Shown here piece by piece: positions 28,147-30,001 of a DNA stretch of 64,000 bases (position 1 is the first letter of the stretch; every line of letters starts with the position of its first letter). Position numbers and translations under genes: made by a program. The DNA lies in the NCBI GenBank assembly GCA_023259065.1, contig JAHFQY010000001.1, positions 66,072 to 130,071 on the forward strand. Direction: 5' to 3'. A model generated the notes under the pieces. It had not been told where the DNA came from. It made no database searches and worked only from the letters and a program-made list of their open reading frames with translations. The DNA comes from Nitrosomonadales bacterium. Lineage in GTDB: Bacteria > Pseudomonadota > Gammaproteobacteria > Burkholderiales > Gallionellaceae.

Positions 28147-28744
28147 GTCGGGGGCAGCCCGACAGCTGCTTACCTTTCTTGCTTCGCCAAGAAAGGTAAG
28201 CCAAAGAAGGCGACCCCAGATCCGCCACCTCTTCGAGGTTCCCTGCGTGGCTCGTCCGGTCAGGCGGCTGCGGAACTCGCACGATCCGCTACGCGGCCAC
28301 GTGCTCAAACAGTCCTCGCCGACATCCCCTGACCGGACTCCGCTACTCGGTGGCGGATAAGGGGAGTTGAAAAGCAAACCCACTCCATCTCCCCCTTGTC
28401 AGGGAGGAGTGCCGAACCGTTCCTCCCCTGACAAGGGGAGGTTGGGAGGGGTTTGTAGCTTACGATTCAAAGCCATCTGAATTAAATCGATGCACCATGC
28501 ACTCGGGGTTTGGGCACCCTTCTGTATCGCTGAGGGCGAGGAATAAAATTGGGGGGAAGGCGAGCACTGTTCGAGCTCCGCGGTGGGGCACGGTGTGTGT
28601 GCCCCGCTAGGGCGAGTTGCGCAGCCGCCCAATTTTATTGCTCGACCGAAGGAACCCGAAGGGCGATACGGCAGGGTTCGCCTTCTTTGGGTTACCTTTC
28701 TTGGCGAAGCAAGAAAGGTAACCAGCTGTCGGGCTGCCCCCGAC
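28147..28744. repeat. Composite of nested inverted repeats (67-nt outer arms)
   Basis: The outer arms 28147-28213 and 28678-28744 are inverted copies identical at 65 of 67 positions. Each arm contains its own hairpin built on TTACCTTTCTT/AAGAAAGGTAA. A second inner inverted pair, sharing AATAAAATTGGG, lies at about 28516-28556 and 28627-28677. No transposase is present. Confidence 0.75.
28389..28440. repeat. Palindromic repeat, CCCCTTGTCAGGG type
   Basis: CTCCCCCTTGTCAGGGAGGA (28389-28408) and TCCTCCCCTGACAAGGGGAG (28421-28440) are near-perfect inverted copies, nested inside the larger composite. Confidence 0.65.
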
Positions 28745-28866
28745 GGTGTTGCTTTTGAGTTTACATGCGGCGCAATGCCCGCTGGTTATTACGACCTACT
28801 TGTTAACGAGAGTGTCGCTTTTGTGCTGCCCATTTCTGCCATTCAAATTTCCCGATAGCTGCCGTT

Positions 28867-28925
28867 CAGGAACGTGAAGTTAAGGGGCGCGCTTGAGCGC
28901 GTCCTGCTTGAACGCAGTGTTAGGC
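28867..28925 (-). other. attC-like recombination site of an integron cassette
   Basis: Read on the minus strand, R'' is GCCTAAC (28925-28919), followed by an imperfect palindrome: GTTCAAG pairs with CTTAAC with one extrahelical C, and GCGC-TCAA-GCGC forms the tip. This matches the architecture of integron attC sites, about 59 bp long. The R' end reads GTTCCTG rather than GTTRRRY, as expected when the last cassette joins a non-integron sequence after G. The stop codon of the cassette gene lies inside the site. Confidence 0.7.
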
Positions 28926-29315
28926 TGTTCAACCCTTTCTAAAGCTTGGTTAACTTTCAATGCAACATAATCATTGGTGCTCCGATACTTTGTGGATTTT
29001 CGGTATTGAGCAATGGACGAAAGCAGTTCAGAGGCTTCACACTTTAGGTCGGGTGATTCCAACATTAAAGATATTCCAATGACATCACCATCGAGCTTAT
29101 TTTCAAGTAATAGAACAGCCTGCTTTTGATTTGAATTGTGCATATCCGTTAAGAGAGAAATGTGGAACTTTGTATCGGATAACATACGTGACGCCATACT
29201 TTCATCGTCAGCACTTTGCCAAAATCGAATGCCAGCCCATCCCCCGGCAAGAAAACCGAGTACTAAAGTTATGCTCGCAATCAAAAATATCCATCGCCTC
29301 TTCATAATGGCCTAA
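28874..29315 (-). mobile_element. Solitary integron-type gene cassette
   Basis: The unit is bounded on its gene-start side by the core site GTTAGGC (29316-29310, minus strand) and on its 3' side by the attC-like palindrome. It carries one promoterless ORF that starts 4 bp after the core, the compact layout of integron cassettes. Base composition is visibly AT-richer than the neighbours. No integrase gene or other cassette is in the window, so this is an orphan cassette, probably inserted at a secondary site downstream of ubiX. Confidence 0.68.
28880..29305 (-). CDS. Cassette-encoded membrane-anchored protein of unknown function
   Basis: A 141-aa protein with a basic N-terminus and one membrane helix (WIFLIASITLVLGFLAGGWA), then a largely helical soluble part with a single cysteine. 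The last residues, NTAFKQDALKRAP, are the translation of the attC palindrome, so the natural fold probably ends before them. I recognise no family. Codon use is AT-rich compared with neighbouring genes. The ATG is 4 bp from the cassette border, so any ribosome-binding site comes from flanking DNA; expression may depend on read-through from ubiX, 97 bp upstream on the same strand. Confidence 0.72.
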   Translation of the reverse strand: MKRRWIFLIASITLVLGFLAGGWAGIRFWQSADDESMASRMLSDTKFHISLLTDMHNSNQKQAVLLLENKLDGDVIGISLMLESPDLKCEASELLSSIAQYRKSTKYRSTNDYVALKVNQALERVEQPNTAFKQDALKRAP

Positions 29316-29350
29316 CAGTTATTAGACTGACCCACCGGTCAGTACTGTTA
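29313..29350. other. Imperfect hairpin abutting the cassette core site
   Basis: TAACAG/CTGTTA and ACTGACC/GGTCAGT form a two-part stem with unequal arms, and the outer stem includes part of the GTTAGGC core. It could be the ubiX terminator or a degenerate attC/att-like structure used as the insertion target. There is no T-tract. Confidence 0.45.
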
Positions 29351-29401
29351 ATAATAGTGCGTGCAACAATCGAAGGGCAGCAATTGGGGTGTTGCAGACA
29401 C

Positions 29402-30001
29402 TCATTCCCCCCACTTCTTCACCAACGTATGCTCCACCCCAAGATGGTCGAGTATCCGCGCCACCACAAAATCCACCAGCTCCTGCACGCTCTGCGGATG
29501 ATAATAAAACCCCGGATTAGGCGGCAAAATAACTGCCCCGGCATGCGCAAGTCTGAGCATATTCTCCAGATGTATCGCAGAGAACGGTGACTCTCGCGGC
29601 ACCAGTATCAACGGCCGTTTCTCCTTGAGCATCACATCCGCACCACGCGCGATAAGGTCGTCGCTCAGCCCCGCAGCAACTGCGGCCAGCGTGCCCATGG
29701 TGCAGGGGCAGATCACCATGGCGTCGCCGGGGTTGGAGCCGGAGGCCATGGGGGCGAACCAGTCGTCCTTGCCGTAGACCTTGAGTGTGCCGCTGAATTT
29801 TCCGAAGCGTTCGTGCAGGAATTTTTCCGCATCCTGCGGGCGCGAGGGCAGCACGAAATCCATTTCCTGCTTGGCGACGATCTGCGCGGCTTGCGAATAC
29901 ACCAGCTGCACGCGTATACCGCTTTGCAGCAGGCATTCCAGCAGGCGCATGCCATAGGGCATGCCGGAGGCGCCGGTAAAGGCCAGGGTGATTGTTTTCA
30001 T
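29402..30001 (-). CDS. ubiX: Flavin prenyltransferase UbiX
   Basis: This 199-aa enzyme makes prenylated FMN, the cofactor of UbiD decarboxylase in ubiquinone synthesis. It has the N-terminal FTGASGMPYGMRLLE, the conserved MVICPCTMGTLAAVAAGLSDDL and the C-terminal PPNPGFYYHPQSVQELVDFV. Length and motifs are normal. No ubiD is in the window. Downstream on the same strand lies the integron-like cassette. Confidence 0.95.
   Translation of the reverse strand: MKTITLAFTGASGMPYGMRLLECLLQSGIRVQLVYSQAAQIVAKQEMDFVLPSRPQDAEKFLHERFGKFSGTLKVYGKDDWFAPMASGSNPGDAMVICPCTMGTLAAVAAGLSDDLIARGADVMLKEKRPLILVPRESPFSAIHLENMLRLAHAGAVILPPNPGFYYHPQSVQELVDFVVARILDHLGVEHTLVKKWGE

Follow-up and report, generated by a model that had tools for sequence, protein, structure and literature searches.

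The window, the 64-kb stretch of DNA from a Gallionellaceae MAG analyzed here, carries a genuine integron gene cassette directly behind the 3' end of ubiX. Comparative sequence data make it probable that this solitary cassette occupies an integrase-less attI, which we label attI-B, and that this attI is a dispersed dock, presumably served by an integrase in trans.

A solitary integron cassette downstream of ubiX

The features of the locus are listed in Table 1. The architecture of the cassette, comprising a G/TTRRRY core (the slash marks the crossover point), one ORF, and an attC with the R''-L''/L'-R' arrangement, confirms that it is an integron gene cassette. Read along the minus strand, the order is GTCTAATAACTG/TTAGGC-CATT-ATG, 141 codons, and GCCTAACACTGCGTTCAAGCAGGACGCGCTCAAGCGCGCCCCTTAACTTCACG/TTCCTGAACG. 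The core runs from G29316 through TTAGGC (ending at 29310) and CATT to the ATG at 29305, the first base of the cassette being the T of TTAGGC at 29315 and the last the G at 28873. The first-pass annotation had recognized the GTTAGGC core 4 bp ahead of the ATG and the single ORF, both of which are present on the minus strand. It had placed the cassette at 28874-29315, with a correct right boundary and a left boundary one base short.

Table 1. Features of the cassette locus in the window
Feature	Position	Strand	Basis
ubiX, flavoprotein, 199 aa	29402..30001	-	Pfam PF02441; co-directional, directly upstream
Leader ORF, MSVCNTPIAALRLLHALLLTVLTGGSV followed by a stop	29322..29405	-	ATGA overlap of its start with the ubiX stop; ends in L box
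attI-B left part, 46 bp	29316..29361	-	Ends at crossover G 29316; L box GTCTAAT; 82-copy family
Integron gene cassette, 443 bp	28873..29315	-	G/TT junction at each end; attC model match
Cassette ORF, 141 aa, hydrophobic N terminus	28880..29305	-	Hydropathy; no known family
attC	28873..28925	-	R'' 28925-28919, L''/L' stem, end at crossover G 28873; covariance model and fold
Putative attI-B unit right end, TTCCTGAACGGCAGCTATCGGGAAATTTGAATGGCAGAAATGGG	28828..28872	-	Profile of other arrays' right ends; likeness to the C45 copy

The attC is intact. Its R'' is GCCTAAC, its end reads TTAACTTCACG/TTCCTGAACG on the minus strand with the crossover G at 28873, and its R' is a hybrid, G/TTCCTG, extending to 28867. 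The overlap of the attC with the ORF stop, which had also been pointed out, was borne out: the ORF stops within L', and the C terminus of its product, NTAFKQDALKRAP, is attC read-through. A covariance model (R1) was built from 20 attCs collected in the host genome and others of its family, with the window attC left out. In a search of the 64 kb, this attC was the sole match (44.5 bits, E 1.5e-8), far above the random score that had been named as grounds for doubting the palindrome. When R' is reconstituted to mimic the excised circle, the bottom strand adopts a standard attC fold with bulged bases; its energy of -14.4 kcal/mol (z -3.1) was equalled by 1 of 200 shuffles. A search of Rfam returned nothing attC-like, only spurious miRNA matches. 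GC makes up 43% of the cassette, whose ORF had been noted as AT-rich, 58% of the window, and 59% of ubiX. The cassette would be excised and integrated by an integron integrase.

The 141-aa product has no Pfam, NCBIfam, or PADLOC match above the cut-off, and its hydrophobic N terminus is likely a membrane anchor. No homologue was found in the searches, and no relative carries the ORF; its presence at this locus in close relatives by vertical descent had been named as a finding that would speak against the first-pass reading.

Integron components of the host genome

The host assembly consists of 65 contigs and is 77% complete. An integrase gene had been predicted elsewhere in the genome, and one full-length integron integrase was indeed detected (C6:813-1799; TIGR02249, 493 bits, over the cut-off). 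Next to it starts a cassette array, which is truncated where the contig stops. This is the only intI over the cut-off in the assembly; none lies near the window cassette. The assembly contains 12 attC matches (the window attC and 11 others; a C7 array accounts for six) and five attI copies, three of the resident type (attI-A, see below) and two attI-B, versus one intI. No cognate intI-B was found in the 77%-complete assembly.

A second integrase-less host array, headed by attI-A and with at least six attCs, lies on contig C7 (L009, G000:C7, 745-4205), not beside intI. The second host attI-B (L070, G000:C45, 6240-7640, minus strand) is located downstream of an nrdG-like gene and is followed by a 413-aa ORF and an apparent truncated attC. 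The right end of this copy, G/TTCTTGAGTGGGTGCTTGGGGGAAAATT, is similar to that of the window.

attI-B is a family of integron attachment sites

The label attI-B denotes the 46 bp that end exactly at the left junction of the window cassette. In a pattern search of 158 family genomes, 58 proved to carry it, with 82 copies in all, whereas the reversed-pattern control gave 0 copies. Named contigs with attI-B belong mostly to the Gallionellaceae genera Gallionella, Sideroxydans, Sideroxyarcus, Ca. Nitrotoga, and Ca. Ferrigenium; the exact pattern is absent from IMG/VR. The consensus of the longer unit (see below) reads GTGCCA.AAGGAGACATTCG..CC.G.CCGTACTATTATGCATATGCGGACA...AATGAATCAATTGGTTATCGAAAATATGC..TCACTATTTTTAATAGTAC.GACCGGTGGGTC.GTCTAATAACTG/TT. 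All copies end at the same point, G/TT with few exceptions, and mostly run into a TTRRRY-type core and a different, unrelated first cassette (78 distinct first cassettes among 81). Sequence of 1.4 kb or more is available for 73 copies; in 52 of these, attCs follow downstream in the correct orientation, one to seven per array. Many of these arrays close, after their last attC, with a conserved stretch, G/TTGAATGTCYGCTTTC..., that represents the right-hand portion of the attI region.

Four copies lie 216-240 bp from intI-B, a distinct, divergent integron integrase gene whose products share 84-96% identity with one another and about 50% with the C6 enzyme; one of the four is a pseudogene. Because these four copies adjoin intI-B, we identified attI-B as an attI. 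The site is conserved, has a G/TT crossover into the first cassette, and in these four copies stands beside an intI gene and divergent from it; the window copy itself has no adjoining intI. attI-B would be bound and recombined by IntI.

Many copies form part of a longer unit. The full unit contains a sigma-70-like sequence, GAGACA-17-TATTAT, that is only suggestive of a promoter (one match versus 0.6 expected by chance), and a short leader ORF of the type MNQLLIENMHSTLLSIVQTGGSV followed by a stop, which ends in the L box. An MNQ-type leader start is present in 46 of 81 copies, in 33 of which the ORF is intact to the L-box stop; the leader is thus common, not conserved in all copies. Three short variants (L193, L195, and L204) have the leader region deleted (GTACTATTAATGCATATGCGGACAGGTGCGTCCGTCTAATAACTG/TT in L195). 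They represent a natural minimal attI, and two of them have an attC behind them.

Most attI copies have no adjacent integrase

Integrons are described as one intI and one attI in cis. Among the 82 attI-B copies, 78 have no intI within 1 kb, and contig ends do not explain its absence, as at least 1.2 kb of upstream sequence is available for 72 of these 78. A comparable picture emerged for attI-A, our label for the attI of the resident (C6) integrase type (GGTGTCTACTTTACG/TT). It occurs in 96 copies in 63 genomes, 66 of them without adjacent intI, and wherever an intI is adjacent, it is 136-164 bp away. Taken together, 144 of the 178 copies of both types lack an adjacent integrase, and the two types occur within the same genomes. 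Family genomes, most of those compared being MAGs, usually carry at most one intI and can hold up to eight attI docks. The single-contig genome G065 has one intI and four attI, and the single-contig genome G073 (C1, L254-L256) has three attI-A copies, with no integron integrase found at E 1e-60.

The attI-B copies are dispersed, with 67 distinct neighborhoods among 80 tested. Upstream genes were co-directional in 49 cases versus 31 (p 0.057), an excess that is only suggestive. Whether a genome has attI-B did not correlate with whether it has intI (Fisher p 0.51); some copies may therefore be inactive relics.

Two copies in G146, a genome matched to Ca. Ferrigenium altingense in whose assembly no intI was detected, share a stretch of exactly 155 identical bp (ATGTGCCATAAGG to AACTG/TT) and have unrelated flanks and cassettes. 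Recent copying of a discrete unit, followed by a change of cassettes at the right edge, would produce this pattern. Many intI-less attI-B copies also share a 5' end, GTGCCATAAGGAGACATTCG, that is absent from the intI-B loci.

These observations bear on the main competing explanation, in which the window holds the relic of a complete integron that once stood at this locus and from which deletions removed intI and most of the cassettes. We regard this as unlikely, even though four intI-B/attI-B integrons exist, one with an integrase that is already a pseudogene, the window unit lacks its promoter half, and degradation is the origin that IntegronFinder's authors have proposed for CALINs (PMC9024848). 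No intI-B remnant was found beside the other attI-B copies. Decay in place would also leave the shared 5' end and the identical G146 pair to be accounted for, and the congener G002 has kept mutY-ubiX without attI-B or any integron there.

The window cassette is flanked by attI-B

According to the first-pass annotation, integrase action had placed the cassette at a secondary site, in ordinary DNA. An integron-type cassette is indeed present; the site, however, is a member of the attI-B family. The best match in the window to a profile made without own-genome copies is the left flank (47.2 bits, E 1.1e-13). On the other side, a profile of 21 array ends, none from the host genome, had its best match in the 64 kb at 28868-28828, just behind the cassette; this match is modest (12.4 bits, E 0.0078), and the right flank may be where the attI-B unit ends. 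Together, the two flanks contradict the secondary-site reading. Insertion at attG-like sites is known to occur (Loot et al. 2024, as cited in PMC12901181), and the G/TTCCTG 3' junction and the missing adjacent intI would fit it. Any attI array, however, should show a hybrid R' behind its last cassette, and therefore its presence in the window does not favor a secondary site. We consider such an insertion very improbable.

An empty site had been suggested as a further check. The joined flanks were sought in 150 family genomes, and no intact empty site was found; in relatives, the region 3' of ubiX is unalignable (ubiX is at most 87% identical). The joined flanks had no plasmid match, and no vehicle was found in IMG/VR or plasmids. 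The mutY-ubiX intergenic region of the window also contains a 71-bp inverted repeat (28147-28217 and 28674-28744, 95.8% identical), and similar repeats lie downstream of ubiX in three relatives (L019, L023, and L027).

Least probable of all is that the 46 bp are a transcription-factor operator or promoter unrelated to integrons, with the cassette there by chance: the GACCGGTGGGTC-type palindrome does resemble a repressor operator, and a sigma-70-like promoter is present in the full unit, but a promoter can also be part of an attI, and the 46 bp end in G/TT, are usually followed by a cassette core, precede attCs in most testable copies, and are linked to intI-B in four genomes.

Proposed function of the dispersed sites

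We favor the explanation that the window cassette sits in a dispersed attI-B dock. According to this model, the attI of Gallionellaceae, in many cases equipped with a promoter and short leader ORF of its own, would be a separate dispersed unit, and such docks would receive cassettes at G/TT, presumably through an integrase acting in trans. The circle found in the window may have been inserted at G/TT by IntI-A or by a transient IntI-B; attI-A and attI-B have the same GTCTA-to-G/TT spacing. Both recombination in trans and the way in which the docks spread are inferred. The broader proposal, that the Gallionellaceae attI is a mobile, integrase-independent promoter-leader-attI unit of about 155 bp whose docks are served in trans by one integrase, has in our judgment an even chance of being correct.

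The leader in the window is 27 aa long (...LLTVLTGGSV) and stops 16 nt before the cassette ATG. The window copy lacks the promoter half, and its leader begins within the stop codon of ubiX; expression of the cassette is therefore likely driven through ubiX. The cassette would probably be co-transcribed with ubiX, and translation would probably be coupled from ubiX to the leader to the cassette ORF.

The class 1 attI1 offers a close parallel. Small ORFs in attI1 couple translation to the first cassette, and attI1 with Pc and ORF-11/ORF-17 resembles the attI-B unit in having a promoter, a leader ORF, an L box, and G/TT before the first cassette (PMC8876359). In contrast to attI1, the sequence of attI-B is different, its copies are dispersed with no intI in cis, its leader ends before the core, and in the window ubiX stands in place of the promoter half.

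With no intI in cis, the window does not contain a complete integron, and its single attC falls below the default CALIN threshold of IntegronFinder 2, two attCs without intI (PMC9024848). CALINs nevertheless resemble the window in having cassettes without an adjacent intI, and one with its own attI, thus also attI-headed, has been reported in Shewanella prophage M16-3 (PMC9892861); attI-B differs from the latter in being a multi-copy dispersed family. The insertions at attG described by Loot et al. 2024, as far as they are cited in PMC12901181, are likewise solitary cassettes away from an integron, whereas the window cassette is flanked by attI-B and not by ordinary DNA. In delta-attI cassettes, attI pieces are carried away from intI by IntI-mediated recombination (PMC12901181). 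This is a possible route for the spread of attI, although there the attI piece replaces the attC at the cassette end, whereas attI-B precedes the array.

In the open-access (open-licence) papers searched, we found no description of a family-wide set of dispersed integrase-less attI sites. If they are served in trans, part of the catalogued CALINs and orphan cassettes would be live expression docks and not the outcome of decay, and many loci could be affected by the capture of cassettes. If the units are mobile, cassettes could be installed behind many loci, including housekeeping operons such as ubiX. According to IntegronFinder's authors, attI is poorly described outside class 1 (PMC9024848); two attI families are now defined comparatively, making the origin of CALINs testable.

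Further features were noted. GACATTC/GAATGTC is inverted at both outer ends of some units (e.g. L079 and L213), together with ATGTGYC, and might mark mobile unit boundaries. At L079, L080, L092, L187, and L076, TTGA.GCTGTAGAAAAACC follows several attCs at G/TT, as if it were one insertion element targeting attC sites. Near a Nitrotoga intI-B integron (L074, 1007-3619), three consecutive distant tyrosine-recombinase matches are reminiscent of recombinase-in-trio elements.
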